In this document: piece after piece, positions 13,380 through 32,913 of the stretch
Layout of the letters: each line of letters starts with the position of its first letter
Position numbering within the stretch: position 1 is the first letter of the stretch
Assembly (NCBI GenBank): GCA_015493765.1
Contig: WGCQ01000167.1
Location: 1 to 33,248, forward strand
Reading direction: 5' to 3'
DNA length: 33,248 bases
From: Deltaproteobacteria bacterium
Lineage (GTDB): Bacteria; Myxococcota_A; UBA9042; DTJE01; S145-11
Notes under the pieces: model-generated
Databases searched by the model: none
Told to the model about the DNA's origin: nothing
What the model saw: the letters and a program-made list of their open reading frames with translations, nothing else
Made by a program: the position numbers and the translations under genes

Positions 13380-14471
13380 TCACATGGGTTGGATCGTGTC
13401 GTGGGTCACCTTGAACAGCCGTATTGTGCTGCGCCATTGCGTGTGATCGGGATTGAGGTATTCACCACCCATCCCTTGGAAGGCACTTGTTTGCTCCATG
13501 TATGAACGTATAGCCGCTTTGGTTTGTGCACCCTGTGTGTATGCCTGGCACACAAATTCCGTGCTGTCCATGGCCCAGACCTCCAGTGTGGACAGGTCAT
13601 GCCCTGTGAATCGACGGTATTGGGCAACCAGTTCCGGGTTTAATACGGCAGAAAACACGTCGCCAAATATCAGGCCCTCCAGGTCGGCTGCACGGCTGAG
13701 CAGCAGGGCAGGTACATCCAGCATCGGGCCACCCACCACCACGACCCTGGATTTTATTTGCATGTAACTTAGATATGCATAAAATCGCACCATTTTGTAC
13801 AGTTTGAACGGGGCGAATACAAAATAGTGGACATGACTCTTTTTGCCAATGGTTGCCGCCAGTTTTGCCGCACAGGTTTTGGGGTCGGTGCAATCCAGCC
13901 TGCCAATAACATTGCCGCCTGCTGACGTGACCCCTTTAGCAAATGATGTGCAGGCCTCGTCCTGAAAATTGTCTGCTCCACAAGCCACAAAACCGGATAA
14001 CAGGCCCATTCCGGCAACCTGTGTCCCCAGGTCCGTGAATAATGCTTCCCTCGTTGGACGCAGCCTCATGGTCCATACCGGCTTTTGTAACGGACCCTTG
14101 CCATTCAGTAACAGGCATGGAATGCCCGATACTTCGCTCCAGGTGGCCATATTTGAGCCGGTCTGGTCACCGATACCACCTATAATCACAAGGCAGTCCG
14201 GGTCGTTTGTCGCGTTGGACAAGGCAATGGTTGCATCGTCGCCGAGCCCCTTCGTATCGAACCCCTGGACGTCCAGGTCGCAAGCCCTGTCCCGTTGTGC
14301 CTGGAATTTGACGGCCCGCATCACCCGCTGGCCCAGGGCCGAGTATTGCCCGCTAAGCGGTACAACCACGCAGATTTTGGGTTTTGCCTGTAATGCCGAG
14401 GGGATACAAGCGGACACAAACAGGGTGAACAGGGGTAAAATGCGGTTCAAACGGATGTTACTCGCCATCAT
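13380..14471 (-). CDS. Periplasmic binding protein of the Leu/Ile/Val-receptor type
   Basis: 363 aa. The signal segment contains LFVSAC, a possible lipobox, but also a normal cleavage site LQA before KPKICVVVPLSGQYSALGQRV, so lipidation is undecided. The fold pattern is a type-1 periplasmic binding protein (LivK or LppC-like): VVPLSGQYSALGQ at the start, CLVIIGGIGDQTGSNMATWSEVSGIPCLLLNG, a hinge, then RVVVVGGPMLDV. These proteins bind small ligands, or in LppC-like cases regulate cell-wall synthesis. No ABC permease or ATPase is adjacent, so transport is not implied. It has several Cys, compatible with disulphides in the periplasm. The start forms an ATGA overlap with the dnaK stop; ATG 14468 is an alternative. 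Confidence 0.8.
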   Translation of the reverse strand: MMASNIRLNRILPLFTLFVSACIPSALQAKPKICVVVPLSGQYSALGQRVMRAVKFQAQRDRACDLDVQGFDTKGLGDDATIALSNATNDPDCLVIIGGIGDQTGSNMATWSEVSGIPCLLLNGKGPLQKPVWTMRLRPTREALFTDLGTQVAGMGLLSGFVACGADNFQDEACTSFAKGVTSAGGNVIGRLDCTDPKTCAAKLAATIGKKSHVHYFVFAPFKLYKMVRFYAYLSYMQIKSRVVVVGGPMLDVPALLLSRAADLEGLIFGDVFSAVLNPELVAQYRRFTGHDLSTLEVWAMDSTEFVCQAYTQGAQTKAAIRSYMEQTSAFQGMGGEYLNPDHTQWRSTIRLFKVTHDTIQPM

Positions 14472-16273
14472 CCGCCTTCATATACCAATTCCGATATCCG
14501 GACCGCTGAACCCTCGAGTTGACGGAAGGCCTCCTGGATGGCTTTAAAGTCCTGTCCGGACAGGGCAGACTTCAGGTTTCTGATGTCTTCCATGATTCGT
14601 GCTGCATCCTCTTCGGGGATCCGCTCCTTGAATTGTGCCAGGGAGCGCTCGGTAGCATAAATCAGTGTCTGGGCCTTGTTGCGCAGGCTCACGGCCTCAC
14701 GTTTTTCCTCGTCCTTCTTTTTGTATTCCTCGGCCTCTCGGATCGCGGCCTCGATGTCACCCTCGGACATGCCACTTGTGGGCCTGATTCGGACACTCTT
14801 TTCCTGGTTGGTGCCCAGGTCCTTGGCTGTCACCGCCAGTATCCCATCGGCATCCACGGAAAAGGTCACTTCGATCTTGGGTACACCGCGTTTGGCAGGC
14901 GGTATTCCGACCAGTTCAAAGCGCGCCAGGCTTTTGTTGTCCTTTGCCAGGGCGCGCTCACCCTGAAGGACGTGGATGTTTACCATGGGCTGGTAGTCCT
15001 GCGAAGTGGTAAACACCTGGGTCACCGATATGGGGACGGATTTGTTGCGTTCGATCAGCTTGGTGAACATGCCGCCTTCGGTTTCAATGCCCAGGGACAG
15101 GGGAATTACGTCCAACAACAGTACGTCACCCACGTCACCTGCCAGGATGCCAGCCTGGATCGATGCGCCGATTGCCACGGCCTCGTCAGGGTGTACGGTG
15201 CGGTTTGGCTCCTTGCCAAAGAACCGGGCCACTTTATGCTGCACCAGGGGCATTTTGGTCTGGCCGCCGACCAGCAACAGCTCATCCACGTCCTTGACGC
15301 CAAGGCCCGCATCCTCCAGTGCCCCTTTGCAGTGTTCAATGGTCTGGTCCACCAGGTCTTCTACCATTTGTTCGAGTTGTGCCCGTGTGATTTGTGCCTG
15401 CAAGTGCTTGGGACCGCTTTCATCCGCAAACAAAAACGGCAGGTTGACCTCGGTTTCTTTCAGGGTGGACAATTTGATCTTTGCCTTTTCCGATGCGTCC
15501 CTGACCCGTTGCAACACGACCCGGTCATCGCTGATGTCCACACCGTACTGGCGTTCGAATTCGCTCAGCAGGAATTCGGATATACGCATATCAATATCCT
15601 CGCCGCCCAGGAAGGTATCACCCCTGGTACTCCTAACCTGGAAGACGCCCTCTGACACGTCCAATACCGTTATATCGAATGTACCACCGCCGAAGTCATA
15701 CACCACCACGGTACCACTCGCCTTACCGCGTACGCCATAGGCCAACGCCGCAGCCGTGGGCTCGTTTATGATCCTCAGGACATTAAGTCCCGCGATCCTG
15801 CCCGCATCCTTGGTGGCCTGGCGCTGGGTATCGTCAAAATATGCAGGCACCGTGATAACAGCATCCGTGACCTTTTCCCCGCGGTATTCCTCGGCAAGTC
15901 CCCGCAGGTAGTCCAGTATCATCGCGGATATTTCCTGGGGTGAATACTGTCGGTCATTCAATACCACGTAGGCATCCCCATTCGGGGCCTCTGCGATCTT
16001 GTATGGATACAGGTGGGCCACCTTTTGAACTGCGTCATCCTTGTACTTGCGGCCAATCAAGCGTTTGACAGCGTATGCGGTATTGCCAGGGCTGCTCATG
16101 ATCTGGCGTTTGGCCATGCTGCCGACCAGACGACTACCGTCTTTTTGTATGCCCACCACTGATGGGATAGTCCGATTTCCCTCCTCATTCGGGATTACAA
16201 CGGGCATTCCGCCCTCTACCATGGCCACCACAGAGTTCGTGGTACCCAAGTCAATACCGATCACCACTGACAT
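14468..16273 (-). CDS. dnaK: Hsp70 chaperone DnaK (short-tailed paralogue)
   Basis: 601 aa, about 35-40 shorter than housekeeping DnaK. The nucleotide-binding domain is intact: IGIDLGTTNSVVA (5-17), VITVPAYFDDTQRQAT, NEPTAAALAYG, VVYDFGGGTFDITVLD, LLVGGQTKMPLVQ. The linker reads DVLLLDVIPLSLGIETEGG (Ile where most have Thr). The substrate-binding domain and helical lid are present, but the protein stops at LVYEGG without the usual disordered acidic tail. No grpE or dnaJ is adjacent. It is placed between a Wzc-like kinase gene (33-base gap) and a binding-protein gene. In M. xanthus the DnaK homologues SglK and Stk affect exopolysaccharide, so a dedicated polysaccharide-linked chaperone is plausible. 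GAGAGGTG before ATG 16273 is a strong ribosome site. Confidence 0.95.
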   Translation of the reverse strand: MSVVIGIDLGTTNSVVAMVEGGMPVVIPNEEGNRTIPSVVGIQKDGSRLVGSMAKRQIMSSPGNTAYAVKRLIGRKYKDDAVQKVAHLYPYKIAEAPNGDAYVVLNDRQYSPQEISAMILDYLRGLAEEYRGEKVTDAVITVPAYFDDTQRQATKDAGRIAGLNVLRIINEPTAAALAYGVRGKASGTVVVYDFGGGTFDITVLDVSEGVFQVRSTRGDTFLGGEDIDMRISEFLLSEFERQYGVDISDDRVVLQRVRDASEKAKIKLSTLKETEVNLPFLFADESGPKHLQAQITRAQLEQMVEDLVDQTIEHCKGALEDAGLGVKDVDELLLVGGQTKMPLVQHKVARFFGKEPNRTVHPDEAVAIGASIQAGILAGDVGDVLLLDVIPLSLGIETEGGMFTKLIERNKSVPISVTQVFTTSQDYQPMVNIHVLQGERALAKDNKSLARFELVGIPPAKRGVPKIEVTFSVDADGILAVTAKDLGTNQEKSVRIRPTSGMSEGDIEAAIREAEEYKKKDEEKREAVSLRNKAQTLIYATERSLAQFKERIPEEDAARIMEDIRNLKSALSGQDFKAIQEAFRQLEGSAVRISELVYEGG

Positions 16274-16306: not shown

Positions 16307-18439
16307 TTATTTATCCTCTTTCGAGGTGTAATAGGACTTCTTATAATATTTATAATAATACCCGTATCTCTTTTTTTCAAGGTCTATCATGTTTAAAATG
16401 GCACCGACGCATTTTGCGCCCACGCCGTCTATGCGCTCCTTGGCCTCCAGGAGTGCGGATTTTGCAGTGCTCCCGTGCCTGGCCACCAGGATTGTGCGTT
16501 TGATCACCCCGGCGGCAATCAGGGCATCACTGACACCCAGTACCGGGGGCGAATCAAACAATACGTAGTCATATCGCTGCTGGAGGGCCTCGATCAAACG
16601 AGGAAAACGTTCTCCGTGCAGTAATTCCGCAGGATTAGGCGGTACTGCGCCACGGGTGATGATATCGAGTCCCTGTACACTCGTATGCGTTATGGAGGCA
16701 TCGATATCGACCTGTCCGGCCAGGTAGTTGGACAGCCCAATCACGGACTTGACGCCGAATATGTGGTGAATGCTGGCCCGACGCATATCCCCGTCCACGA
16801 TTACCACAGACGACCCGCTGGTGGCGATTGCCGCGGCCAGGTTGGCCACGATCGTTGACTTGCCTTCCTTGGCGCTGGGGCTGGTGATCACCACGGATTT
16901 AACGTCCTCCGGGCCGCCGGCAAACATGAGGTTTGTTCGAACCACCCTCATTGCCTCAGCATACGAGGACTCTGGTTCTTTGATTACGTACAACTCTCGT
17001 TCGCCCTTGCCGCCGTTTTTCACGAGGGGCAGGACACCCAGGTTGGATGTACCCAGCTCATCCTCGATGAATTCCGGCGACTCCACTGTTGTATCCAGCC
17101 CTTCCAGTGCAAAGGCGGCAAGCAGCCCGGCAATCAAGCCACCCATCAAAGAGATGGCAAGGTTTGCCTTGGGCCTCGGCAGTACCGGAGCCTTCGGTTC
17201 CACAGCCCTTTCCAGGATATCCGTATTACTGGTTACCACCTCGCCGGTCAATTGAGTTTCGGTCTGCCTGCGCAGGATCTTGCGATAGAATGCCTTGTCC
17301 TCCTTACTGTTTTCCATCAGCCGCTGGTATTTGACCTGTTTCCATGCCAGTTTGTATTCCTCCTTGCGCAGGCTGTCCAGTTCGCTCAGGTAACTACGTT
17401 CCAACTGTTTCACCTCGTTATACTTGGCCTGGTACCCGGCAACGATACTTTGTACTTCGTCCAGTATGGCCTTCTTGAGGGTTTCCACCTGGGCCTTTAA
17501 TGCCTTGCATTCGGGGTGGTCCGGCAGATAACGTGATTCCATCTGTTTCAGGCGGGTAATTTGGTCCACGTATTTTTCCTTTAAACTCTGGACCAGTGGC
17601 GCATCGATCAGGCCGCTGGTAGGGATCCTGACCACGTCCTTGTTTTTCAGGACCTTGTTCAGTTCCTGCAGCACGGCTTTTAATTGCAGCAGGTTACTGT
17701 GCGCCTCGTTGTACTTCAGCGTGTAGTTGTCCAGGGACATGCCGAGTTCTTTCATCCTGGTTTCGATGGTGCCCACATTGTTCTTTTTCTCGAATTCGTA
17801 CAGAAGGTTTTCGCTGGCCTCACTACGCGCCTTCATGTCCGCCACCAGTTCCCTCAGGTCCGCGTATGCCTGCGCCACGCGATTACGGCGGGTTTCCATC
17901 TGGTACTGTTTGTAGGACATCGCATACGCGTCCGCAATCTGTACGGCCCTGTGTTTGTCCGTATCCTGGATCACGATTTCTATGATATTACTGTCCTCGA
18001 GGTTGTCGATCTTCAACTCGCCCATTACCTTGCCAATAGCGGCCTTCATGCGTTCGTCGGCAGACAGTTCCTTGGTGGTACTGTCCTTGTTTTTCGATAT
18101 ACCCAGGAAATCATCATCATCCTGTAGCCCCAATCTTTGCACGACCCGTTTTGCAATGGCCCTGCTCTTGATGATCCTTAGTTGGGTGTTGATGAAATTC
18201 TTTTCAACCCAGTAACCTGCCGGTTCCGTGTCCAGTACGTTGCGCATGCCAGGCAACAGTGCCGGTGTACGCCGATTGACCACGATCGTGGCCCTGGCCC
18301 GGTACTGTGGCCTTGTTGTAAAGGTCTTGTATGCCCCCAGGCCAACACCAACCACTACGAACCCCAGGATCACCCATCGCCTGCGCAATATGACGCCAAC
18401 GAGAGTCTTTAATCCCTCCTTGTTCTCGCGGTTCTTCAT
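16307..18439 (-). CDS. wzc: Wzc-like polysaccharide co-polymerase and tyrosine autokinase
   Basis: 710 aa inner-membrane protein that controls chain length and export of capsule/exopolysaccharide. First transmembrane helix about 22-40, then the Wzz periplasmic domain with long coiled coil (about 190-400), the PxxPxxP-type segment PKAPVLPRPKAN (416-426) and second helix (about 426-447). The cytoplasmic BY-kinase has Walker A SPSAKEGKST (520-529, Lys 527), Walker A' VVIVDGDMRR (545-554), Walker B DYVLFDSPP (624-632) and a Tyr-rich tail with eight Tyr between 692 and 704 (YGYYYKYYKKSYY). Kinase and membrane part are in one chain, as in proteobacteria. The start overlaps the stop of the export lipoprotein gene (ATGA). 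Confidence 0.96.
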   Translation of the reverse strand: MKNRENKEGLKTLVGVILRRRWVILGFVVVGVGLGAYKTFTTRPQYRARATIVVNRRTPALLPGMRNVLDTEPAGYWVEKNFINTQLRIIKSRAIAKRVVQRLGLQDDDDFLGISKNKDSTTKELSADERMKAAIGKVMGELKIDNLEDSNIIEIVIQDTDKHRAVQIADAYAMSYKQYQMETRRNRVAQAYADLRELVADMKARSEASENLLYEFEKKNNVGTIETRMKELGMSLDNYTLKYNEAHSNLLQLKAVLQELNKVLKNKDVVRIPTSGLIDAPLVQSLKEKYVDQITRLKQMESRYLPDHPECKALKAQVETLKKAILDEVQSIVAGYQAKYNEVKQLERSYLSELDSLRKEEYKLAWKQVKYQRLMENSKEDKAFYRKILRRQTETQLTGEVVTSNTDILERAVEPKAPVLPRPKANLAISLMGGLIAGLLAAFALEGLDTTVESPEFIEDELGTSNLGVLPLVKNGGKGERELYVIKEPESSYAEAMRVVRTNLMFAGGPEDVKSVVITSPSAKEGKSTIVANLAAAIATSGSSVVIVDGDMRRASIHHIFGVKSVIGLSNYLAGQVDIDASITHTSVQGLDIITRGAVPPNPAELLHGERFPRLIEALQQRYDYVLFDSPPVLGVSDALIAAGVIKRTILVARHGSTAKSALLEAKERIDGVGAKCVGAILNMIDLEKKRYGYYYKYYKKSYYTSKEDK

Positions 18440-19035
18440 AGGAGCGACTCCGGCACAAAGACGATATCACCCGGGACCAGGAAGAAATTAGGTGCCTTGC
18501 CTTCACTGATACTTTCTACCGGAACCACTACCTTTTTTTCCCCCTTTGGTGTCATCCGCGTCACGATCACATCATCCGTACGGGCGGTTCGTTTGAATCC
18601 ACCGGCCTGGGCAATGGCCTGGACAATGGTCATACGTTCCTGAAAGGGCAGGGTGCCCGGGTGTCTTACCTCTCCCAGCACATATACCCGTTTGCTGCGG
18701 TATTTTTTGATTAATACGGACACGTAGGCGTGCCTCAGATAGCGTTTGGCCAGGCCCTTTCTGATCATTTCGCTGACCTCCGAGGCCGATTTTCCACCCA
18801 CGTGGAGTATCCCCAGCAAAGGATAATCAATGGTTCCATCCTTGGATACCTGGAATTCCCCGGACAGGTCGTGCTCCCTGTAAACTTGTACTGCAAATAT
18901 ATCGCCCGGGCCCAGGACCATGGCCTGGGAACCATCAGTAACAGGAAAATTTATGTCCTTCAGATAGTCTCTTGAAGCACTACACCCTGTAATAAAAAAG
19001 ACGGACAAAACCGTCAGCCATAACCTTGTCAACAT
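18436..19035 (-). CDS. wza: Short Wza-like polysaccharide export (OPX) lipoprotein
   Basis: 199 aa. Lipoprotein signal with ITGC (Cys 18). Poly-export domain about 38-112 (LGPGDIFAVQVYREHDLSGEF, DGTIDYPLLGILHVGGKSASEV) and one SLBB domain from about 114 (KRVYVLGEVRHPGTLPF) to the end, NFFLVPGDIVFVPESLL. E. coli Wza is about 380 aa and ends in an amphipathic helix that forms its own outer-membrane pore. That helix and the extra domains are missing here, so the protein cannot itself cross the outer membrane. This is the arrangement described for short OPX proteins that work with a separate barrel, and a barrel gene lies just three bases upstream. Confidence 0.93.
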   Translation of the reverse strand: MLTRLWLTVLSVFFITGCSASRDYLKDINFPVTDGSQAMVLGPGDIFAVQVYREHDLSGEFQVSKDGTIDYPLLGILHVGGKSASEVSEMIRKGLAKRYLRHAYVSVLIKKYRSKRVYVLGEVRHPGTLPFQERMTIVQAIAQAGGFKRTARTDDVIVTRMTPKGEKKVVVPVESISEGKAPNFFLVPGDIVFVPESLL

Positions 19036-19038
19036 TCC

Positions 19039-20322
19039 TCAATAGTAAAGCCTCAGTCCACCCATTATATAGTTACGGGTATATTTGGCCTTATCCGTGA
19101 ATCGTGCGCCTGATGTGCTGACCGTGGTGATGGAGAAGTCGGTGAAATCCCCATAGAACTTGTATTGCACATTCAGGGCCAGGTATCGCAATATCGAGAA
19201 ATTGAGGCCTATCCCGGCCTCCAGCACGCTATCCCGCCGGTTTGTCGTGCTAACGGTTGTCGCAGCCGTGGCCGGTGTATAAGGGCCATACATCAGGTAG
19301 TTGTAGGCCAGGCCCACCTCGATATTGAATTTCTGCCAGAATTGCTGTTTAAATGACAGGTAAACACGATGGGCACCGTAATAGTTTGAATAGTAGGAAT
19401 CCTCGTAATAGTGCTTGTAACCGAATTCCAGCAAGGTCGATGGGGTGAATTTGTACCCCATTATCGCTTGTCCGGTCCAGTCCGTATAATCGTTACCGGC
19501 ATCATAAAACCCTTTTGTGAATCCAACACGCAGGTCCAGGATCAACTTGGCGGTTATATAGCCCACAAGGCCGATCCTGGCCACCAGGGGATCGGAATCC
19601 ACGTTCAACAGTGTGCCTGGTTTGCTGTGACTGTACTTAAAGAATGTTGTATAGGCATCTATGACCATACTGGTTTTGGGCAGAAAATCCCAACGTATCA
19701 TACCGCCCACTTTATGCGATATGAAATCACCAGTCTTATAGTCGTCATACCGTACCAATGTGTTCACGTAAAACAGGCCGATATCCAGGACACCACCACC
19801 CGGCCGTATGCCGATATTCAAGGCCGCCGTGTTTTCATGGTGGTTCAGGGTCTGGTTGGTGGAGTAATTCCTGGGCTCGATGCTACGTTTGTACGTATCA
19901 TGGATGTCGGCCCCAAAGTGTGCCCGGGGGAACAATTTCAATTCCATGTCAGCCGTTGCCCCCACGGTATTCAGATGTTCGATCGCCTTCTTGTTGCTGA
20001 AGTAATGCCGGTAATCCACTATGCCGGCCAGGCTGAAATATACCTTGCTACCATTAGGATTATGCAGTTTCAGGCCGCCTTGCGGCAGGATCAGGCCGGC
20101 ACTTTTGGGTGACTCGGACTTGTCCTGCCTGAAAATATTGCTATCCCAACCCGCCTGAACGCCTGCCAAAGGGACCAGTCTGAAAGAACCGATTTTAAAG
20201 CCCCTGATTTTTTCATGTTCCTGAGGGGGCAGGGATAAAATCTGGGCATAGGAAGCCCATCCAAGGAATGTGCATATAGAAAATACAATAAGACTATATC
20301 CTACCCGATTAAAGGCTTTCAA
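19039..20322 (-). CDS. Outer-membrane barrel, probable exopolysaccharide porin (Wzp-like)
   Basis: About 427 aa. No ATG lies near the start. TTG 20322 is preceded by GGGAGTAGAGGA and gives a signal peptide LKAFNRVGYSLIVFSICTFLGWASYAQ; TTG 20337 is an alternative. The mature part opens with RLVPLAGVQAGWDSNIFRQ, the GWDSNIF pattern typical of BBP2-type putative barrel porins of exopolysaccharide loci, followed by about 16-18 long amphipathic strands (FTPSTLLEFGYKHYYEDSYY, FNIEVGLAYNYLMYG) and a terminal GGLRLYY with aromatic closure. It is followed after three bases by the pore-less export lipoprotein and then the tyrosine kinase, so it is most likely the outer-membrane channel of that exporter, like M. 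xanthus WzpX-type porins. Confidence 0.85.
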   Translation of the reverse strand: MKAFNRVGYSLIVFSICTFLGWASYAQILSLPPQEHEKIRGFKIGSFRLVPLAGVQAGWDSNIFRQDKSESPKSAGLILPQGGLKLHNPNGSKVYFSLAGIVDYRHYFSNKKAIEHLNTVGATADMELKLFPRAHFGADIHDTYKRSIEPRNYSTNQTLNHHENTAALNIGIRPGGGVLDIGLFYVNTLVRYDDYKTGDFISHKVGGMIRWDFLPKTSMVIDAYTTFFKYSHSKPGTLLNVDSDPLVARIGLVGYITAKLILDLRVGFTKGFYDAGNDYTDWTGQAIMGYKFTPSTLLEFGYKHYYEDSYYSNYYGAHRVYLSFKQQFWQKFNIEVGLAYNYLMYGPYTPATAATTVSTTNRRDSVLEAGIGLNFSILRYLALNVQYKFYGDFTDFSITTVSTSGARFTDKAKYTRNYIMGGLRLYY

Positions 20323-20370
20323 ATCCTCTACTCCCAATCAACCAGAGTTGCCATATTCATCACATCCACA

Positions 20371-20994
20371 TCAATAGAATTCGGTACTTGGTACTACGTT
20401 TGCTTGCTCCATCATACTAAATCGGTCCGGAGGTGACAAGACCTCCTGTCCATAGGGATCAACCTCGGGTGCCGGCCTGGTGGCATCATCCACGATGTTG
20501 CCGGAAGGGACCCCTGGCAGGATTTCCTTTTGGACCTGGACTCCCCGTGCAAAGACCTGTTCGATATTTGCACTGCCGCATTGCTGTGCCCTGTTGTTTA
20601 GTTCCAACATCTTGCGGTTGCTGATCACGACCTTCACGAACTGGCTTTCCGCATCCATCCTGTCATTCGTAGCGCTCAATTCCTTGAGATTCAGGAGGCT
20701 TTGCTGTCCGATCCTGACGAGTCCCTTCATTGCCGGGATCAGGTTACGCAGGCAACTGACCTTGGAACTATCCTTGGCATTACCGGCCTTTTTCAGGGTT
20801 TTAAGTACGCTTGAATACATCTGGCTGCTGTCGTCCACGAGCCTTGATGCTTTGGATAGTAATTGTGACATGGAGAGTTTCTTCACCTCGTGGAGGTTGA
20901 CCTGACGCATTCCTTGATTTTGCTGGGCAGGCTGCGACCATGCGCCAACGGCAACAAAGGTCAATACAGCAATTGCCAGACCAGTTTTTTTCAT
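20371..20994 (-). CDS. Exported helical protein of unknown function
   Basis: 207 aa from ATG 20994 with GGAGGAGGCC directly upstream; an earlier in-frame ATG would add seven residues ahead of the signal peptide. Signal MKKTGLAIAVLTFVAVGAWSQ. The mature protein is mainly helical, with two cysteines (81 and 139) likely to form a disulphide and an acidic, Pro-rich tail (APEVDPYGQEVLSPPDRF). I do not recognise the family. It is the first gene after the TTGCAA-17-TATAAT promoter and precedes the barrel gene by about 50 bases, so it is probably a periplasmic accessory of the polysaccharide exporter. Confidence 0.7.
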   Translation of the reverse strand: MKKTGLAIAVLTFVAVGAWSQPAQQNQGMRQVNLHEVKKLSMSQLLSKASRLVDDSSQMYSSVLKTLKKAGNAKDSSKVSCLRNLIPAMKGLVRIGQQSLLNLKELSATNDRMDAESQFVKVVISNRKMLELNNRAQQCGSANIEQVFARGVQVQKEILPGVPSGNIVDDATRPAPEVDPYGQEVLSPPDRFSMMEQANVVPSTEFY

Positions 20995-21021
20995 GGCCTC
21001 CTCCGAACTTAACACATAAAC

Positions 21022-21050
21022 ATTATATCACAAAAATCCAACCATTGCAA
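21022..21050 (-). promoter_or_regulatory. Strong sigma70-type promoter of the polysaccharide export operon
   Basis: Minus strand TTGCAA (21045-21050), 17-base spacer, perfect TATAAT (21022-21027). Expected start near 21015, leaving about 20 bases to ATG 20994, with GGAGGAGG in the leader. It begins immediately after the stop of the TonB-like gene at 21054, so the two clusters can be expressed independently although no terminator is seen between them. Confidence 0.75.
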
Positions 21051-21053
21051 AAC

Positions 21054-22484
21054 TCACATTTTCTGGAACAATAGCGGATACATTACAGTTACAGGAGACC
21101 CCTTCGGCCTCGGGAAATGCCACGAACGTACCCTGCTGATTACGCATGCAGCGAGCCGGCTGTTCCCGGTCTCGTTTGCCCTCACCATTACGGATTGTAC
21201 CTGCCCGCTGAGACCAATCACAATGATCAGCGTGATTTTCCCATGTATATTCGGATTTGTTTTCAGAATGCGTTCATAGCATATCTTGATCGCACTTTGC
21301 TTACGGCGGAACAGCCTTTCCACGCTGTGTGCATCGATTTTTCCACCGATTTGCGAACCCATGTGGCCGCCTATACGCAATCTGACAGCCACCTCCTCGT
21401 TTTTGGACTTTACAACCCGGCCTACCTTGCCGGTCTTGATAGGTCCTCCGATTTCCTTGTTGGACAGCCCTTTGTATGAACCGGCACCAGTATTTACGCC
21501 AGTCTTGGGGCCGCCCTTGTACCCCACCAGGCCGGTACCGGCCTTTGCCGCCTTTACACCGGTTTTGCTGCCGAAGGCGTCTTTCAAGGCGCTCATGGTG
21601 GCACCGCTTTTGACCGTTGCACCCTTGATAATGCCATCCTTGCCCATTGCGCCGAGGTATTTGATCACCGAGTTTGAACGTACCGATGCCAGCAGTTTTT
21701 TCCTGTGGGCAGCAGCGCTTATTTTGTGGATGCCACCACCGCCTCTCCTGTGATGGCGATGTGCAACCTTACGGACATGGCGTACCGGTGCAGGTGCAGG
21801 CGCGGCCTTTTTCTTGCCTTTGCCGGCGTTATTGTTGGTTTTCACAACGATGGGCTTTTTCTTTTGTTCCATTTCCACTTCGGTCTTCAACAGTTCGAAG
21901 GCCTTGCTGTAGATATGGTTTTCCTCGAGGTGGGTTATCATGTGTCCCTGCCACCAGAATGCGAAGGCCACGAACGCAATGTGCACACCCAGGGATATGC
22001 CCAGGGATATGAACATCTTGCTGTCGATGTTGGTCAGGATCCCGCCGCGCACGGAGGCTGGCAATTGGTATTTCGGCAATGGCTTGGGCGGGTCAATAAA
22101 CTGGAACAACAGGGATACGTCGCCGAATTTCAGTTTACCCCTGGAATTTTCATCCAGAGGCATAAACAGATAACCCTTGGATTGTTTTACGAAATTGCTG
22201 GTTGCGATCTGGGCAAGATTAAAAATCTCACCGTTGATGGACAACTTGCCCTGCATTTTCTTGGTGAAGCACAGGTAATATTTGCCTTTCCTGTACCAGA
22301 ATAGTTTGAAGGACTCCGGAAATCCTTCGAGGGGCACCATGAACGTAGCCTTTTCCGATGTCCCTATGGTGACGTCCTTGGGCTTACGCATCAGGCGTTC
22401 TTCAACAAAACGGCCAGCCCGGACAATACCCAATCGCAGTATCTTGGGGACCGTTTTTTTCTTTTCTTCCGAGCCTTTCTTCAT
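21054..22484 (-). CDS. FHA-like/TonB-like one-helix protein (GltG/PglI/AgmX type)
   Basis: 476 aa from ATG 22484; a TTG two codons earlier has better-spaced AAGG and may be the true start. Layout: cytoplasmic FHA-like beta domain (about 15-135, LRLGIVRAGRFVEERL...VTIGTSEKATFMVP...GKLSINGEIF), one transmembrane helix (about 156-178), a periplasmic Lys/Ala/Pro and His-rich linker (PVRHVRKVAHRHHRR), Gly-rich segments, and a TonB-like C-terminal domain (about 393-476) with RKQSAIKICYERILKTNPNIHGKITLIIVI and VRSWHFPRPKGSPVTVMYPLLF. The last is the AgmX/PglI C-terminal signature. In M. xanthus such proteins link the TolQR-type motor to periplasmic and outer-membrane parts. The gene follows the two TolR genes directly. 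Confidence 0.9.
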   Translation of the reverse strand: MKKGSEEKKKTVPKILRLGIVRAGRFVEERLMRKPKDVTIGTSEKATFMVPLEGFPESFKLFWYRKGKYYLCFTKKMQGKLSINGEIFNLAQIATSNFVKQSKGYLFMPLDENSRGKLKFGDVSLLFQFIDPPKPLPKYQLPASVRGGILTNIDSKMFISLGISLGVHIAFVAFAFWWQGHMITHLEENHIYSKAFELLKTEVEMEQKKKPIVVKTNNNAGKGKKKAAPAPAPVRHVRKVAHRHHRRGGGGIHKISAAAHRKKLLASVRSNSVIKYLGAMGKDGIIKGATVKSGATMSALKDAFGSKTGVKAAKAGTGLVGYKGGPKTGVNTGAGSYKGLSNKEIGGPIKTGKVGRVVKSKNEEVAVRLRIGGHMGSQIGGKIDAHSVERLFRRKQSAIKICYERILKTNPNIHGKITLIIVIGLSGQVQSVMVRANETGNSRLAACVISRVRSWHFPRPKGSPVTVMYPLLFQKM

Positions 22485-22491
22485 TGGCAAA

Positions 22492-23178
22492 TCAATACCT
22501 TCTCACTGTGTAAATTACTGCAAATCGCATCTTGGTAAAATTCACCATACCAGCAGTGTGAACCACCTGTATCACCAGTTTAAAAGGAATGTCCCTGTCA
22601 CAGATGATATTGACGATACCCTTCCATTTTTTGTGTAAGGCCTTGTCCTGTTCACGTTGGATCTTTGCCTTTTTCTTGAGCACCTTGTACAGGGGCACGA
22701 TCAGGAAATTGTTTTCATCACCGTTTTTAAGGTACGTCTTGTCCACGTAAAAACGCATTTTGTTCAGGTATTTTTTCTCCTGATCGGAGCATTTTGCCGG
22801 GTTGGTATCACAGAACGTACGTCTTTTGATGGCATTTGCATCGCACCTGGCATCCCCTATCTTGCAATCCACGTTTACCACTTCCTGCTTGTCCACCAGG
22901 ATGCTCCTTTTGGTGATGGTAATCGGGATCGCATCCTGTGGCGTTGATTTAACCGTGGACTTTGCCAGCAACAGGTTTTCGTCCTGTTTGATGTTCAACG
23001 GGTCGGAGGTCAAGGTGATCAGCAGGAAGATCAGCAGGATCGTCATGGCGTCCATCAACGAGGTGATGCCAAAGGGCCATTCCTTCATTTCCCTCTTGGC
23101 CTTCAACTCGGCGATCCTCTCCCGCATCTTCAGGACTTCTTCGAAGTTTACTTCGTTGGTCTTGTTTTCGTCAGCCAT
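22492..23178 (-). CDS. TolR/ExbD-family motor protein (proton-site Asp present)
   Basis: 228 aa, longer than E. coli TolR (142 aa). Cytoplasmic N-terminus with a coiled coil (about 10-32), one transmembrane helix FGITSLMDAMTILLIFLLITLT with the essential proton-carrying Asp at 43 (codon 23050-23052), then a periplasmic domain with four cysteines in DCKIGDARC...FCDTNPAKC (an unusual Cys-rich insert) and a C-terminal part like ExbD (GIVNIICDRDIPFKLVIQVVHTAG). With TolQ it forms a proton-driven stator. It lies between the second TolR gene (10-base gap) and the TonB-like gene (a few bases). M. xanthus AglS/AglV are the nearest functional models. Confidence 0.92.
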   Translation of the reverse strand: MADENKTNEVNFEEVLKMRERIAELKAKREMKEWPFGITSLMDAMTILLIFLLITLTSDPLNIKQDENLLLAKSTVKSTPQDAIPITITKRSILVDKQEVVNVDCKIGDARCDANAIKRRTFCDTNPAKCSDQEKKYLNKMRFYVDKTYLKNGDENNFLIVPLYKVLKKKAKIQREQDKALHKKWKGIVNIICDRDIPFKLVIQVVHTAGMVNFTKMRFAVIYTVRRY

Positions 23179-23188
23179 AATCTGCCTC

Positions 23189-23806
23189 TTACTCCATCAC
23201 CACAAAGACCACCTGCGGGAACAAAAACCTGGGGATGATCTTTTTTCCCTCTGTTTCAGTATCCACCTTGGCAGTGGCAAAATCATTCAGGTCCTTGAAA
23301 TGGTCCTTTTTCAGGATGAACCTGGCGGTATCGATGACCCGTGCTATGATTTGCCAACGAATGTTAGGTGCCCCTGTGATATGGACCGTCTGTTCTTCCT
23401 TGAAGTGTTTTTTGATTTCATACAATTTCTGGTAGAGAGCGGGGTAATCGTATTCCAGGATGCGCTTTCCGGTTCGCGGGTCCTTGAAGACCTTTTTGGG
23501 TATGCTGATACTGGAGGGCAGGTTTACGGAACCAGCCACTTCAGGGTCCATTTTTATGGCAAAACCGGGTTTCGTTACTACCACGGTCAATTGTAAGGGC
23601 TTTTTCTTGTTGTCGCCCTGGTTGTTACCCGGACCTGCCGCCCCGATTTTCGGCGCGCTCACAGGTTGGACCTGAATCTTGTAAAAACTGAACGTATACA
23701 GCAGCAATGGTATCAAAATGGCCACCAGACCCATGACCGGCTTCAGGTCAACCTCCGCTGGTACGTCAGGTGTCTTATGGGCTTTTGACGATGGTGTTCC
23801 AGCCAT
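23189..23806 (-). CDS. TolR/ExbD-family protein lacking the proton-site Asp
   Basis: 205 aa from ATG 23806; AGGAGGTG five bases upstream chooses this among GTG-ATG-ATG-ATG candidates. One transmembrane helix in VDLKPVMGLVAILIPLLLYTFSFYKI. In ExbD/TolR the residue three after the Pro is the proton-carrying Asp (PxxD); here it is Gly (codon 23729-23731). The periplasmic part follows the ExbD plan (LQLTVVVTKPGFAIKM, ITGAPNIRWQIIARVIDTARFI). A TolR subunit without the Asp would not carry protons and may be structural. It sits between TolQ and the complete TolR, with gaps of 26 and 10 bases, so the three are co-made. Confidence 0.9.
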   Translation of the reverse strand: MAGTPSSKAHKTPDVPAEVDLKPVMGLVAILIPLLLYTFSFYKIQVQPVSAPKIGAAGPGNNQGDNKKKPLQLTVVVTKPGFAIKMDPEVAGSVNLPSSISIPKKVFKDPRTGKRILEYDYPALYQKLYEIKKHFKEEQTVHITGAPNIRWQIIARVIDTARFILKKDHFKDLNDFATAKVDTETEGKKIIPRFLFPQVVFVVME

Positions 23807-23832
23807 CATCACCTCCTACAGTAGTTGAGTGT

Positions 23833-24489
23833 TCAGTCCCGGCTACCGCCGCCCTGAGCCACACCGGCCTTCAGTCTTTCGATCAGCCTGTTTTCCAGTT
23901 TCACAGAGTACTCATCGATTTCCGCGATGATCTTTTTCGCCATGTTCTGAATCAGGATGTGGAACAAAAGCACCGGCACCGCCACGATCAGACCGAACGC
24001 CGTGGTGTACATGGCCACGGAAATACCCATGGACAACTGTGCCTGCCTCTTGTCAGCAGCCGCACCGCTCAAACTGTGGAATGCGGCGATCATACCGACG
24101 ATGGTACCCAACAGGCCCATCAGGGTGGCGATGTTGGCCAGGATGGGGAGGTTGTCGATACGTTTCAGGATCAACGGCACCACCTCCAACGTAGCCTCTT
24201 CCACTGCCGCCATGATCTCGGCCTCACTTTTGTTGGCCCTGACCAGGCCGGCCTTCACAACCCTTGCCAAGGCAGCATTAGGCGCATTGTTACACAATTT
24301 GATCGCCCGTTCGATGTTGCCGTGCTTGATCAGCTTGTCCACCTGTCCCATAAAGGCCTTACCATTTATGTTGTGCCTGTACAGGTGGTAAAACCTTTCA
24401 ATGATGATCCCGAGGGCAATGATCGATACAATCAGGATCATGTACATCCAGAATCCGCCCAATTGAAAGGCTTGAGCAATGTTTTCCAT
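23833..24489 (-). CDS. TolQ/ExbB/MotA-family proton channel
   Basis: 218 aa. Three transmembrane helices: 13-32, 115-138 (NLPILANIATLMGLLGTIVGMIAAF, the conserved TolQ/ExbB pore segment with GLLGTVxGM) and 155-182 (GISVAMYTTAFGLIVAVPVLLFHILI). It forms the pentameric proton channel around TolR subunits in the inner membrane. GGAGGAATAGT-ATG gives the start. Followed by two TolR-type genes rather than one, and by no TolA/TolB/Pal genes, so it belongs to the AglX/AglR-like gliding or envelope-machine branch rather than the housekeeping Tol-Pal system. Confidence 0.95.
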   Translation of the reverse strand: MENIAQAFQLGGFWMYMILIVSIIALGIIIERFYHLYRHNINGKAFMGQVDKLIKHGNIERAIKLCNNAPNAALARVVKAGLVRANKSEAEIMAAVEEATLEVVPLILKRIDNLPILANIATLMGLLGTIVGMIAAFHSLSGAAADKRQAQLSMGISVAMYTTAFGLIVAVPVLLFHILIQNMAKKIIAEIDEYSVKLENRLIERLKAGVAQGGGSRD

Positions 24490-24560: not shown

Positions 24561-24818
24561 TCAAAACATATCCTCCTGTAAAGGGGTTTCCACCTTTTTC
24601 AGAAAGTCCTCCTTCAGGGGGATACCTTTATACTTGATCTTCTGTCGTTCCAGGATGAATGTGACCCTGGGCTTTTGTACACGGCCCTTAATACGTAACA
24701 CATTCATCTTGATTACCTTGCCAGGCGGCGGCGCCGGCCGACCCTTGGCATACGCCGTGCCTGCTAAGGCCATACTTGCCAGGGCTATGTAAAAAAGCAT
24801 CCTAACCATGGTAATCAT
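24561..24818 (-). CDS. Small exported protein
   Basis: 85 aa. Signal peptide MITMVRMLFYIALASMALAGTAYA, then a Pro/Gly hinge (KGRPAPPPGKVIKM) and a basic conserved-looking core (NVLRIKGRVQKPRVTFILERQKIKYKG) ending in an acidic tail. The core resembles proteins I associate with aglT/TolQ clusters in delta-group genomes, but I cannot name the family. ATG 24818 has AGGGGTGGTGG close upstream; ATG 24809 is possible and would fit better if the promoter at 24830-24858 is used. The next gene downstream is TolQ, 71 bases on. Confidence 0.7.
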   Translation of the reverse strand: MITMVRMLFYIALASMALAGTAYAKGRPAPPPGKVIKMNVLRIKGRVQKPRVTFILERQKIKYKGIPLKEDFLKKVETPLQEDMF

Positions 24819-24870: not shown

Positions 24871-26286
24871 TCATTTTTTACCCCCCTGATTACCCTGGTT
24901 TGAACCACCGGAATTCTGTGCAGGCGGAGGAGTGGTGTTTTGCTGTTTGTTTTGCGGTTCCTTTTGCTGCGGCGGAGTTTGCTGTGGTTGAGGTGGCGTC
25001 TTTGGAACCTGCTGAAGTTGTTTTAGTAACTGTTCCTGCTGGATGGCCATGCGTTTTGCCTCGTCCATGTACTTGTACACCGGGTCGTTGCTGGACAGGT
25101 ATTTTGCATTGGCCTGGTATTTTTTGAACCATTTTATGGCCCTGCGGTAGTGTTCAGGCCGATCCATGCCTGTTGGTTTGTCGGAGAGTTCGATTATCCC
25201 CAGGTCGAAATAGGCATAGGGATTGTCAGGCGAGACCTGTAAGGCCTTGTGAAAGACCTTGCGGGCCGCGTCAAATTTTACCATCTTGGTTAGCACGGTT
25301 CCCAGCCCCAGGTAACCTTCCACCCTGCCAGGCATCAATTTGATGGCATCCTCGAATTGTTGCCTGGCGCCGGTGTAGTCGCCCGCAGCCATGTAAAGCA
25401 GGCCCAACTGGATCCTGGCATCATACAGATTCGGATTATGTTTCAAGGCCTCCTCGAATATGGGAATCGCATCGCGTTTCTTTCCGGTTTTCAACAGGAT
25501 GTGGGCCATCATGTCCAGTGCATCAGGGTCATTTTTGTTTATGTCCTGGATCTGGGTGAGCACGAATTTTGTGGTTTCGTAACGCTTCATGGCCATGTAG
25601 CCCAGGGCGATCGTCTTCATCACGTCGATATTGGTCTCGGCCCTTTTCAGCACGTTTTTTGCCAGGCGCACCGCCTCGGACGGCTTACCCTGGTAGATGA
25701 GTACACGGGCGGCCAGGTTGGCCGCAGTAATCGATTTGGGATGTGATGACGCATACCTGTTCAGGAAATTGTACAGTTCGGTGTAATTGTGTCTGGCCAC
25801 GTCGGCCGAAAACAGCACGTTCAGGCACTTGTCCGTTTTCTTCAAACCCTCGATTGCCGAACGGGCCAGCTCAGCGGCGTCCGCATACTTACCCAGGCGA
25901 TATTTTACCACTGCGTCATTACATTTTGCCACCGGGTCATTGCCGGATGACGACAGGATGCTGTCCGCCCTTTGCAGGTCCCCTGCGGCCGCTGCCGCAG
26001 CAGCCTGTGCCACGACACCGGTATCCGCCTCGCCTGCATCAGGGACACTCGGCGCCCCTGAATTATCAGGAACTTGCGCCATATTACGGCCCTGGTTCGG
26101 TGTGGCATTTTCAACGGCCTTTTTTTCGTCCTTCTGTTGCTGTTTCCCGTTTGGTTTCGGCTGGGATTTGGCCTGGGTGGTTTTTTGTACCTCCACCTTT
26201 GCAGGCATCCGTTCACCTGCCACCTCTGCGACCGAGCCACCGCAGCCAAGGACGAACACAGGTATTACAAACCACAGCGTTTTCAC
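24871..26286 (-). CDS. TPR lipoprotein (AglT/GltE-like)
   Basis: 471 aa from GTG 26286, which overlaps the previous stop as GTGA. Lipoprotein signal MKTLWFVIPVFVLGC (Cys 15). A low-complexity Lys/Gln linker and an Ala run (VVAQAAAAAAAGD) precede about seven TPR units (about 95-390), for example DARIQLGLLYMAAGDYTGARQQFEDAIKL and YLGLGTVLTKMVKFDAARKVFHKAL. The last 40 residues are Gln/Pro/Asn/Gly-rich and probably disordered. TPRs hold partner proteins. An outer-membrane TPR lipoprotein is a known part of the M. xanthus gliding complex (AglT, now GltE). Expected to hang from the outer membrane into the periplasm. Confidence 0.88.
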   Translation of the reverse strand: MKTLWFVIPVFVLGCGGSVAEVAGERMPAKVEVQKTTQAKSQPKPNGKQQQKDEKKAVENATPNQGRNMAQVPDNSGAPSVPDAGEADTGVVAQAAAAAAAGDLQRADSILSSSGNDPVAKCNDAVVKYRLGKYADAAELARSAIEGLKKTDKCLNVLFSADVARHNYTELYNFLNRYASSHPKSITAANLAARVLIYQGKPSEAVRLAKNVLKRAETNIDVMKTIALGYMAMKRYETTKFVLTQIQDINKNDPDALDMMAHILLKTGKKRDAIPIFEEALKHNPNLYDARIQLGLLYMAAGDYTGARQQFEDAIKLMPGRVEGYLGLGTVLTKMVKFDAARKVFHKALQVSPDNPYAYFDLGIIELSDKPTGMDRPEHYRRAIKWFKKYQANAKYLSSNDPVYKYMDEAKRMAIQQEQLLKQLQQVPKTPPQPQQTPPQQKEPQNKQQNTTPPPAQNSGGSNQGNQGGKK

Positions 26287-29200
26287 CTGGCCCTCCCCAA
26301 CTGAGGAACCGCAACTTCATGGTCCACTGGCATCACCTTTCCTTCCTTGACCAGGGGATAGTTCTGGGGCTCATAGGAATTCAAGCGTTCCCATGCCTTT
26401 TTTACCCACTTGTTTATGAGTTTGTTTTTCCTGGCCTCTTCCACCATGACCTTGTACCTGGTCAGGGCCTTCTTTTGCAGTGGCTGCGCAAACTGGTCCA
26501 ACTGGTCCTTGTACATGTCCTGTTGTTCCTCGTTAAACCCGGCAGGCACAGGGGCATCGAACAAGGCCTGTGCGAACAGTTCGTATATCTCGGCCAGCCT
26601 GTACACGGCCGCTGACGACCATTCCCCTGACTTGTACACCAGGACCTGGGAGTAGTCCTTTTCCAGTTCCGCAAGCAGCCGCTTTTTTTCCTTGATCTTG
26701 CGGCCCGCCTGTTTCAAACTGCCGCTGAAGTCAATAGCCTTATAGCGTTTGTACTTGGGTTCGATACGATTGAACACGATTTGGGCCACGTAATCAGCGG
26801 CCTTGCTGCCGGCCGGCAATCCCAGTTTGTTGTATTCCGACACGATCTTGTCCAGCAAGCGCCTGTATTCCCGCCTGTTGCGCATGCGTTTGGCGATTTT
26901 TGCCATGTTCCACAAGGCCTCGATTACCCGTTGGCCCTGGTCAGGACGATCGCCGAAGCGCCTGATGAATTCCCGGTAATATTTTACAGCGGCCGACAGG
27001 TTGCCTGCCTTTTTCATGTAGATTGCGGCCGCATACATTGCGTTCACGGCATTTTTGTCCGTTTCATAGACGCGGGAATATTTTTCCAGCAGCCTTGCGG
27101 CCTCCTCGTACTTGCCCATTGCGATATTCAAAAATGCCGATTGGTACAAGGCTGCCTTGGCGTACTTGCTGTCAGGGAATCGGGTCAGCAACGTCTGGTA
27201 GGCATTGACAGCGGCCTGGAAGTTAAAGAACTTGCGTGCGGTTTCGGCCAGGGTGGCCAGGGACGATTCTATGAAACTGGATTTCTGGTATCTGGGGTCC
27301 GTGACCAGTCGTGTCAGGACCTTGGTTGCCGAATCGTATTTTTTTACCTGGATGTAGGCGATCGCAGCGTTATACAATGCCTTGTCTGCGAATTTTGCAC
27401 CCGGGTCCTGGTCCACAACCTTGATAAAGGCCTTGGCCGCGGCCTCGTATTTCTTTTGCTTGAACAGTTTGGCCGCACCTTTGAATGCAGCACCCAGTTG
27501 GAATATCTTGATTTGTGCCGCCAGTTTGGCCCTTTCCTCGGGTTTGCCCAGGTGCAAGGCCTCCAATTTCTTGGCCCATTTCTGGATTCCGGCCCAGTCA
27601 TTTTCGAGGCGGTACGAGTTGATGATATTTGCAGCAGCATAACTGGCCACTACCTCCTTGGGGTATTCCTTGATGATTTGGGCAAAACGTTTCCTGGCCT
27701 CGGCCAGGTGCCTGCGTTTGTACAATTCCAGGGCCACCCGGTACATCAACTTGGGCCTGGCGTGTGGGTCATTGGGACGATTGAGCCCCAGTTTTACATA
27801 CCTGTCCACAGCGGCGATCCATTTTTTTGTGAGTTCAGGCAACGGTTGTTCGGGGACCTTGATTTTGGTCTTGGCATTGGGCATGGACACTTCCTCGATG
27901 GGACCCATTTCGCCCGGGCGGTCCGATGGGGTCAATTGTCCGCTCTTGATGGCCTTTTCAATGGCCTTTTCATAGGAAAAAATGACCGAGAATCCGGCCA
28001 GTTCCCGGTATTTGTCCTTGCCCTTCCAGTCCCGGACCTTTGCGTAGTACTTCGCCGCTTCAATGTAATGCAGGCTGTAGTAAAGCGAGTCGGCCAGCCA
28101 CAGCGTAATGTCATAGTTATTGGGATTTGACGGATAGCGTTTCAGAAACAATTTGAATTCCTCGGCAGCCTTGTTGTATTCGCCGATTGCCTTGGCCATG
28201 GTAACCAGGTCACCGGGGGTGGACTCGGCCTTTTTTCTGAGGTCGGATGCCCGTTTCTTGTGCAGTGCCGCCGCATTATACAGGGCCAACTGGATCTGTC
28301 GTTCCACCCTGGCCATGGCAATTGGTTTGGCCTTGTTTTTTGCATACCACGCGCTGCCTGGCCCGAAATCCTTGATCAATTTTTCGCGTTCCTCGGTGGC
28401 CTTTTCCCATTCGCCCATTTCCTGGTAGGTCAGCACGATCTTTTCCTCGAGTAGCGGGTTGTCCGGGTGCCCGGGGTATAGCATCATAATGGAGCGGTAC
28501 GCCTTGATTGCCTGCTGGAATTTTTCCTTGGTACGTTCCGCGAACAGGCGGTCGGCGTATTTAATCAGTACCTCGCGTTCGTAAGGTTTGCCTTCCGACA
28601 GGTAACTCAAGGCCCTTTGGACACCGGCATCCGGGTCCGGTTCGCCATCGCCGTCCCAGTCATCGTCGGCCAGGCTATAGGCCAGGTATTCGACGGCTTC
28701 ATCACGCAACTGGGCGCCCAGGCTGCCCTTCCCGTGGCCCGCATCGAGGTATTCGATGAAGCGCTTGAATGATGCGATGGCCGTTGGATACTCGTTATTC
28801 TGGAAGTATGACCAGGACAATTTGTAAAGGGCGTCCGTGTACCACTTGCTTTTCGGATTTTCCAGCACCTTTTGATATGCATGCTGGGCCTTGACCCACT
28901 CGCCCATGTCAAAATAGTACTCGCCCAGCCGCATCCAGGCAGCGCCACGCATCTTGCTTTTCGGATACCTGGTGACCAGTGCCGTGTACGCCTGCATGGC
29001 CTTTTCGTCTATACCCATGTCCTCGTAACAATAACCCAGCAGGTATTCCGCCACATCCGCCATCCTGTAGTTGGGAAAACGCTTCAGCAATTGTACGTAT
29101 AATTTTATCGACGGAGTGTAATCCTTTTGTGGCGGTTTGGGCCTGGCAGGGATCTTCCCTTTTTCGTACAAGGCCATCTTACGGTCGAAAGCGTCGTTGG

Positions 29201-29735
29201 CATCCAAAAATGCCTCGAATGAACGGTCATAATAGAGGTCTGCCAGCCTCATCATGACCTCCGGTGTGTACGTTGGATTATTGGGATATTTCTTCAGAAA
29301 GTCCTCGAGGGTTTTGATCGCCTCTATCCGTCGTTTGCGGACCTCATTTTCCGGTTCCTTTGCCGCAGCGGCATAGGCCCGCTCAATGTCCTTTTCCCTG
29401 CGCATGATTTCAACCTGTAGTACTCCAGCCATGCCTTGCAGGGTGCTGATACCGGCAGCGCGGTATTGCCTGACCAGGTTTTCGTAGTATTTGCGTTCTT
29501 TTTGGGTAAGGGTGTTGTGTTTAAGCGTTTCAGCCTGTTTTTTTTGAGTTTTTTCAGTCCCTTTGATGGTTGTTTTTTTGCCTTTTTGCTTTATTGCCTT
29601 GTTTTTCTGTTTTGCGCCGGCCTTTTGTGCGGCCGTATGGCCCGGTTTTCCCCCGGGGGTCTTCTGCGCATAGACCACCGGGGATGCCAGGAAGAGCAAT
29701 ATAATGATGTAAGAAAAGTATTTACTTTTGTCCAC
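26283..29735 (-). CDS. Giant periplasmic TPR protein
   Basis: 1150 aa from GTG 29735, preceded by AAGAAGGG. It starts 14 bases inside the upstream gene. Signal peptide MDKSKYFSYIIILLFLASPVVYA, a Lys-rich linker (about 27-72), then TPR/YbgF-like repeats almost to the C-terminus; clear units are YVQLLKRFPNYRMADVAEYLLGYCYEDMG, AYTALVTRYPKSKMRGAAWMRLGEYYFDMGEW and YQTLLTRFPDSKYAKAALYQSAFL. An Asp-rich calcium-type loop, DDDWDGDGEPDPD, interrupts the repeats at 357-369 (28629-28667). Large TPR proteins of this kind (AgmK/AgmU type) form the periplasmic scaffold of the Myxococcus gliding/spore-coat machines. Probably a spring-like scaffold linking inner- and outer-membrane parts. Confidence 0.88.
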   Translation of the reverse strand: MDKSKYFSYIIILLFLASPVVYAQKTPGGKPGHTAAQKAGAKQKNKAIKQKGKKTTIKGTEKTQKKQAETLKHNTLTQKERKYYENLVRQYRAAGISTLQGMAGVLQVEIMRREKDIERAYAAAAKEPENEVRKRRIEAIKTLEDFLKKYPNNPTYTPEVMMRLADLYYDRSFEAFLDANDAFDRKMALYEKGKIPARPKPPQKDYTPSIKLYVQLLKRFPNYRMADVAEYLLGYCYEDMGIDEKAMQAYTALVTRYPKSKMRGAAWMRLGEYYFDMGEWVKAQHAYQKVLENPKSKWYTDALYKLSWSYFQNNEYPTAIASFKRFIEYLDAGHGKGSLGAQLRDEAVEYLAYSLADDDWDGDGEPDPDAGVQRALSYLSEGKPYEREVLIKYADRLFAERTKEKFQQAIKAYRSIMMLYPGHPDNPLLEEKIVLTYQEMGEWEKATEEREKLIKDFGPGSAWYAKNKAKPIAMARVERQIQLALYNAAALHKKRASDLRKKAESTPGDLVTMAKAIGEYNKAAEEFKLFLKRYPSNPNNYDITLWLADSLYYSLHYIEAAKYYAKVRDWKGKDKYRELAGFSVIFSYEKAIEKAIKSGQLTPSDRPGEMGPIEEVSMPNAKTKIKVPEQPLPELTKKWIAAVDRYVKLGLNRPNDPHARPKLMYRVALELYKRRHLAEARKRFAQIIKEYPKEVVASYAAANIINSYRLENDWAGIQKWAKKLEALHLGKPEERAKLAAQIKIFQLGAAFKGAAKLFKQKKYEAAAKAFIKVVDQDPGAKFADKALYNAAIAYIQVKKYDSATKVLTRLVTDPRYQKSSFIESSLATLAETARKFFNFQAAVNAYQTLLTRFPDSKYAKAALYQSAFLNIAMGKYEEAARLLEKYSRVYETDKNAVNAMYAAAIYMKKAGNLSAAVKYYREFIRRFGDRPDQGQRVIEALWNMAKIAKRMRNRREYRRLLDKIVSEYNKLGLPAGSKAADYVAQIVFNRIEPKYKRYKAIDFSGSLKQAGRKIKEKKRLLAELEKDYSQVLVYKSGEWSSAAVYRLAEIYELFAQALFDAPVPAGFNEEQQDMYKDQLDQFAQPLQKKALTRYKVMVEEARKNKLINKWVKKAWERLNSYEPQNYPLVKEGKVMPVDHEVAVPQLGRAR

Positions 29736-32848: not shown

Positions 32849-32913
32849 ATTTAACACCCCCGTACGGAGTGATGTTTGATGACCGACATCACCGATACAA
32901 TTACCTCATAAAA

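Follow-up and report, generated by a model that had tools for sequence, protein, structure and literature searches.

The described systems closest to the locus reported here come from Myxococcus xanthus. The locus lies on contig WGCQ01000167.1 (33,248 nucleotides) of an uncultured Deltaproteobacteria bacterium of the lineage Myxococcota_A, and the window discussed below is this whole contig, C167 of a 3.57-Mb genome assembly that comprises 279 contigs and is 97% complete. On the minus strand of the window, which carries every gene of interest, a complete Agl/Glt "core" (32118-21054) precedes the genes of an outer-membrane polysaccharide exporter (20994-16307), and sequence comparisons suggest that machine and exporter probably work together. 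The Agl/Glt core was described by Luciano et al. in 2011 (PMC3169522). The locus resembles it in having all seven core types, homologues of AglR, AglQ, AglS, GltC, GltD, GltE, and GltG, in one run, as in the non-gliding carriers of the core; GltD was assigned by size, TPR content, and position only, and the GltC, GltE, and GltG matches fall below the equivalog cutoffs. Unlike that core, for which the main text of the paper gives no exporter, the one found here has an exporter, a GltG without an FHA domain, and a TolR1 without the proton-site Asp. A second point of comparison is the M. xanthus spore coat, in which the Agl-Nfs machine, likewise of the Glt type, works with a glycan exported through the OPX protein of Exo (PMC3858216). 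However, nfs and exo are separate loci there and the motor is shared with gliding, whereas machine and exporter are contiguous here. The preliminary description of the window had taken Nfs and Exo as its model, and a closer counterpart can now be proposed.

Three gltD homologues were listed in M. xanthus, MXAN_1922 in cluster G4, MXAN_1327 in G5, and MXAN_3374 in G3 (nfs), and the function of G4, G5, and M2 was called unknown by Luciano et al. (PMC3169522). Nearby locus tags encode the outer-membrane barrel WzpB (MXAN_1916) and the OPX protein WzaB (MXAN_1915) (PMC9603273). The wzaB gene was called orphan-like, lying 1.016 Mb from the other genes for the biosurfactant polysaccharide (BPS), and the phenotypes of its mutant match those of other BPS mutants; in Sandaracinus amylolyticus, wzaB was reported to be contiguous with the other BPS genes (PMC7310880). 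From MXAN_1922 to wzaB there are seven locus tags, which is near the spacing in two loci of our set (L144 and L108) that read GltD, GltE, GltF, GltG, helical protein, barrel, and OPX. The M. xanthus counterpart thus seems to be G4 together with WzpB/WzaB, an assignment drawn from locus-tag distance in published papers and not from a sequence comparison. Both have Glt core genes near an 18-strand barrel and a class-3 OPX, and WzcB, the copolymerase of the BPS pathway, is likewise a PCP-2A protein fused to a kinase. Unlike in the present locus, the motor genes in M. xanthus are elsewhere (M1 and M2) and the papers treat G4 and wzaB separately; in the open-licence literature searched for MXAN_1916-1921 and MXAN_1921-1924, we found no paper joining G4 and wzpB/wzaB. 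The exporter part also resembles the EpsX/EpsY-type translocon (PMC9601211, PMC9603273), with the gene for an OPX lipoprotein of domains D1 and D2 directly after that for an 18-strand barrel, and with a copolymerase (PCP). It differs in that a conserved three-helix protein and the Glt core precede, and in that there is no glycosyltransferase cluster in the window. In order of transcription, the features of the two parts are as follows.

32120..32857, minus strand: 245-amino-acid secreted protein at the head of the cluster; no Pfam or NCBIfam match, a homologue preceding the GltC-like gene in many loci
29722..32118, minus strand: GltC-like TPR protein; NF033756 GltC, E=1.3e-9, partial and below cutoff, position conserved
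26283..29735, minus strand: GltD-like large TPR protein, 1150 amino acids; TPR families, size and position like M. xanthus GltD (1191 amino acids; PMC3169522), orthologues 27-45% identical
24871..26286, minus strand: GltE-like TPR lipoprotein; NF033758 GltE, E=1.5e-18, below cutoff, lipobox-like VLGCGG
24561..24818, minus strand: GltF-like small secreted protein, 85 amino acids; sequence read directly, homologues at the same place in most loci
23833..24489, minus strand: AglR/TolQ-type motor subunit; PF01618, E=3.7e-23
23189..23812, minus strand: TolR1, AglQ/AglS type; PF02472, E=1.7e-4, below cutoff, proton-site Asp replaced (Gly28 here)
22492..23178, minus strand: TolR2, AglQ/AglS type; PF02472, E=3.8e-8, Asp43 kept
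21054..22490, minus strand: GltG-like transducer; NF033760 GltG, E=7.7e-36 (model 208-647 only), and NF033768, E=3.5e-24, the latter over cutoff
21022..21051, minus strand: promoter-like TTGCAA-17-TATAAT with extended -10; consensus scan, regional total at chance level
20371..20994 (alternative start to 21015), minus strand: secreted three-helix-bundle protein with a disordered C-terminal tail; no family, AlphaFold model
19039..20337, minus strand: 18-strand outer-membrane barrel, Wzp/EpsX type; PF10082 and a weak EpsL match, AlphaFold model
18436..19035, minus strand: class-3 (D1D2) OPX lipoprotein; PF02563 and PF22461, lipobox ITGC with invariant Cys18
16307..18439, minus strand: Wzc-type PCP-2A tyrosine autokinase; PF02706 and TIGR01007, over cutoff

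The preliminary description had recognized a TolQ-TolR-TolR-TonB-like block beside barrel, OPX, and Wzc genes, and these genes and their coordinates are correct in the window. The block is larger than described, however, with the GltC-, GltD-, GltE-, and GltF-like genes missed directly upstream of the motor and a start of the unit at about 32857. The exporter had been said to follow immediately, 40 bases later; the gap measures 38 or 59 bp according to which start codon is chosen, but the next gene encodes a secreted protein of 207 to 214 amino acids and not the barrel. A promoter had been placed in this gap, where a sigma-70-like match with 10 of 12 positions and an extended -10 is indeed present. 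Across the region, a consensus scan gave 11 such matches against 9.8 expected, which is chance level, so that the promoter remains putative.

The linkage between the two parts is conserved well beyond this genome. Twenty loci from the same class, each excised around a GltG orthologue, were annotated with window-derived profiles, and in 15 of them GltG, the helical protein, the barrel, and OPX stand in the same order on one strand. The remaining five are cut by contig ends or masked (four) or rearranged (one, L050). Among 60 further loci picked across the phylum, the complete run is present in 39, and nine have GltG and the barrel, nearly always with the helical protein, without OPX; six loci are without the run, one of them (L106) a paralogue, and six are cut or partial. 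When a phylum scan with GltG was set against a phylum scan with the barrel, 94 genomes had both among the matches listed; family f6, in which barrel and GltG are separate, was for that reason not counted. In 78 of these 94 genomes among the matches listed, GltG is followed on the same strand by the barrel at 645-7336 bp, and the median gap of 949 bp leaves room for the helical protein. In the other 16, the two are far apart on one contig (3 genomes) or on different contigs (13 genomes, several with GltG at a contig end). The adjacency is therefore kept across many families of the phylum, and the suspicion that it might be found only in this genome can be put aside. As genetics, a linkage so old and widespread argues for a functional or regulatory link of the kind that had been proposed for the motor and the exporter, but Wzc is a variable neighbor, TolQRR is often absent, and the modules are separable.

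These variable parts were followed across the loci. Only a minority of class members (G000, G016, G018, and G033) carry Wzc at the locus; in the others it is elsewhere, and the idea that it is a core part of the locus was dropped. G001, G002, G004, and G005 have no motor trio at the locus, and the TolQRR motor is also missing from the loci of several other families that keep GltG, barrel, and OPX. In L093, L095, L097, L100, L102, L123, and L128, a lone degenerate TolQ-like membrane protein without TolR is encoded between the GltF-like gene and GltG, as if a motor had decayed in place. A third TolR-like frame lies between TolR2 and GltG in L137 (7427-8206). The helical protein accompanies the barrel also in loci where neither lies with the Glt genes any longer (L138-L143, L146, and L147). 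In the loci L116, L117, L121, L122, and L126, which have GltG and the barrel and no OPX, FtsK/SpoIIIE-, LolA-, and RimO-like genes were read by eye after the barrel.

The exporter part has the features of a class-3 OPX/barrel translocon, a D1D2-only OPX lipoprotein adjoining an 18-strand barrel, and its predicted role is polysaccharide export. The OPX protein has no domains beyond D1 (PF02563) and D2 (SLBB), and its lipobox Cys is invariant. The AlphaFold model of the barrel has 18 long strands (pTM 0.73), and 18-strand barrels were reported for EpsX, ExoB, and WzpB (PMC9601211). Comparison of this model with the PDB gave generic outer-membrane barrels with low TM-scores and was uninformative. 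The locus holds the cell's only detected OPX-type exit, because the genome has one PF02563 match, which is the OPX of the locus, a single match to the profile built from the Wzc found here, and one initiating sugar transferase (PF02397, contig C180). The PCP and the initiating sugar transferase are those expected of a Wzx/Wzy-dependent pathway. An OPX protein without any copolymerase had been considered, as the Pfam Wzz model found no PCP in several genomes, and was rejected when the profile of the locus Wzc found Wzc in 18 of 18 genomes tested (in two pieces in G019). The helical protein has no Pfam or NCBIfam family, and its AlphaFold model, with helices within residues 42-137 at pLDDT >90, gave no hit in the PDB at E<=0.001. 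Class members share a C-terminal aromatic motif in this protein, which is not phylum-wide and was discarded as a general mark of the protein.

The motor may be of the two-TolR proton type known from AglRQS. The transmembrane proton-site Asp of TolR2 is present in 42 of 42 aligned sequences, and that of TolR1 is lost in 40 of 41, being replaced by Asn in 29, Ser in 5, Gly in 3, and Ala in 3, and kept as Asp in 1. In a further AglRQS-type motor of this genome (contig C43; L149:4025-5118), both TolRs keep the Asp. If a 5:2 stoichiometry is assumed, a motor with a TolR1/TolR2 axle would be left with one proton site. The GltG-like protein has an N-terminal domain, one predicted transmembrane helix, a periplasmic linker, and a tail of the AgmX/PglI (TonB-like) type, and its profile matches solved TonB tails (E=1.3e-4). 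The set differs from the M. xanthus gliding machine in that the GltG-like protein scores 123.8 bits against an equivalog cutoff of 650, over positions 208-647 of the model only, and has no FHA match, and in that GltH, GltI, GltJ, and GltK have no match among the proteins scanned. G340 and its family, at first considered as candidate Myxococcaceae, were set aside as such, since none of their GltG proteins reached the equivalog cutoff. Two further GltG-like genes in the genome, on contigs C18 and C43 (L148 and L149), score higher on the GltG model. One of these has FHA-family matches and stands beside a TPR gene and a histidine kinase, and the other stands beside an AglRQS-type trio.

Beyond Wzc, three neighbors follow in the direction of transcription.

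14468..16273, minus strand: DnaK, a neighbor conserved in the organism's own class
13380..14471, minus strand: periplasmic-binding-protein-like protein; PF13458
12408..13370, minus strand: ThiL-like protein of the AIR-synthase family, a housekeeping neighbor; PF00586/PF02769

The intergenic gaps from TolQ to ThiL are -4 to 59 bp, which is compatible with one long operon. In two loci of another family (L136, 7141-8793; L137, 12687-14378), a diverged Hsp70 gene follows OPX, like DnaK in the class of the window. Farther along the window, a listed open reading frame of 931 amino acids at 8902-11697 overlaps a FadL-like gene (11061-12311). A start of this frame at about 11050 is more probable, and the protein from the restarted frame would carry a TSP3 repeat.

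The reading that we favor, and consider rather probable from these comparisons, is that the locus encodes a trans-envelope machine of the Agl/Glt family, of the same type as G4 in M. xanthus, which would be dedicated to one exported glycan of the Wzx/Wzy type and encoded together with its outer-membrane exit. Proton flow through TolQ-TolR would drive the GltG-like tail, and the GltC-, GltD-, and GltE-like TPR proteins and the GltF-like protein would relay this movement through the periplasm to OPX, the barrel, and the three-helix protein. The TonB-like tail and the TPR proteins would offer a path from the proton motor to the outer membrane, where the barrel and OPX are the likely partner because their pairing with GltG is conserved. 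The glycan, made with the Wzc copolymerase, would leave via OPX and the barrel, and the machine may position, gate, or move either this exit or the outgoing strand. In cells whose locus lacks a motor, a different Agl motor is probably used, much as AglRQS works with both Glt and Nfs in M. xanthus, where AglR was found to bind GltG and NfsG in a two-hybrid assay (PMC3858216). Force may serve to export the glycan, to place the exporter, or to move released polymer, and any mechanical coupling by which the motor would power export directly is putative. Placing the exporter or moving the polymer after release is favored over powering export, because Exo is exported in M. xanthus without Agl. A proton-powered glycan exporter, in which a half-active stator with one Asp-bearing and one Asp-less TolR drives the TonB-like tail to open the OPX/barrel exit or pull the polymer, is a doubtful version, and we found no description of an energized step in outer-membrane polysaccharide export in the open-licence literature.

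Several observations weigh against a dedicated machine. A polar MXAN_1922 mutant had no motility defect, and BPS was not reported there (PMC3169522). No TolR2 orthologue was found in five class genomes (G001, G002, G004, G005, and G011), two of which gave 20-bit matches only. Family f6 has lost these Glt genes from the locus but keeps the helical protein, barrel, OPX, and Wzc with DnaK or ThiL (L140-L142), and G196 and G356 have the exporter near a Wzc and about 645 kb away from GltG; evidently, export does not require this Glt set to be close by. In M. xanthus agl mutants, Exo polymer is still at the surface, and Nfs acts downstream of secretion (PMC3858216). This separability and the Nfs/Exo precedent, together with the promoter-like site that splits the two modules here, would also fit shared regulation only, by which the Glt machine and the exporter are made together for one surface program and act independently, the machine moving the polymer after its release as was proposed for Nfs and Exo. 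We give this alternative an appreciable minority chance. Against it, many families preserve the gene order with its tight spacing, and in loci that have no OPX the Glt genes are still joined by the barrel and helical protein. This last pattern, seen in the nine loci mentioned above, with FtsK/LolA/RimO-type genes following in several, could instead mean that the Glt machine ends at the outer membrane in the barrel and helical protein, which would correspond to GltA/B/H of M. xanthus, with OPX a later addition in some lineages and glycan export secondary. That is improbable, since the helical protein and barrel stay with OPX and Wzc once the Glt genes are gone (L138-L142), and EpsX, an 18-strand barrel beside a class-3 OPX, is needed for formation of exopolysaccharide (PMC9601211). 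Neutral synteny of two unrelated operons is hardly credible, for although DnaK, ThiL, and the binding protein are also neighbors in many class members, they were seen in 0 of the 60 further loci, where GltG and the barrel are kept together in most, so that the linkage is not mere frozen synteny, and the rearrangement in L145, which moved the motor and GltG away, left GltC-D-E-F beside the helical protein, barrel, and OPX.

A dedicated machine of this kind would offer a function for G4, a Glt paralogue cluster reported with unknown function, and could explain why wzaB lies a megabase away from its pathway in M. xanthus. It also turns into a testable question whether a gliding-family proton motor acts at an outer-membrane polysaccharide exit. 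Two further features emerge from the comparisons, a three-helix partner of Wzp-type barrels that is conserved and still unnamed, and a stator in which the loss of one proton site is conserved.

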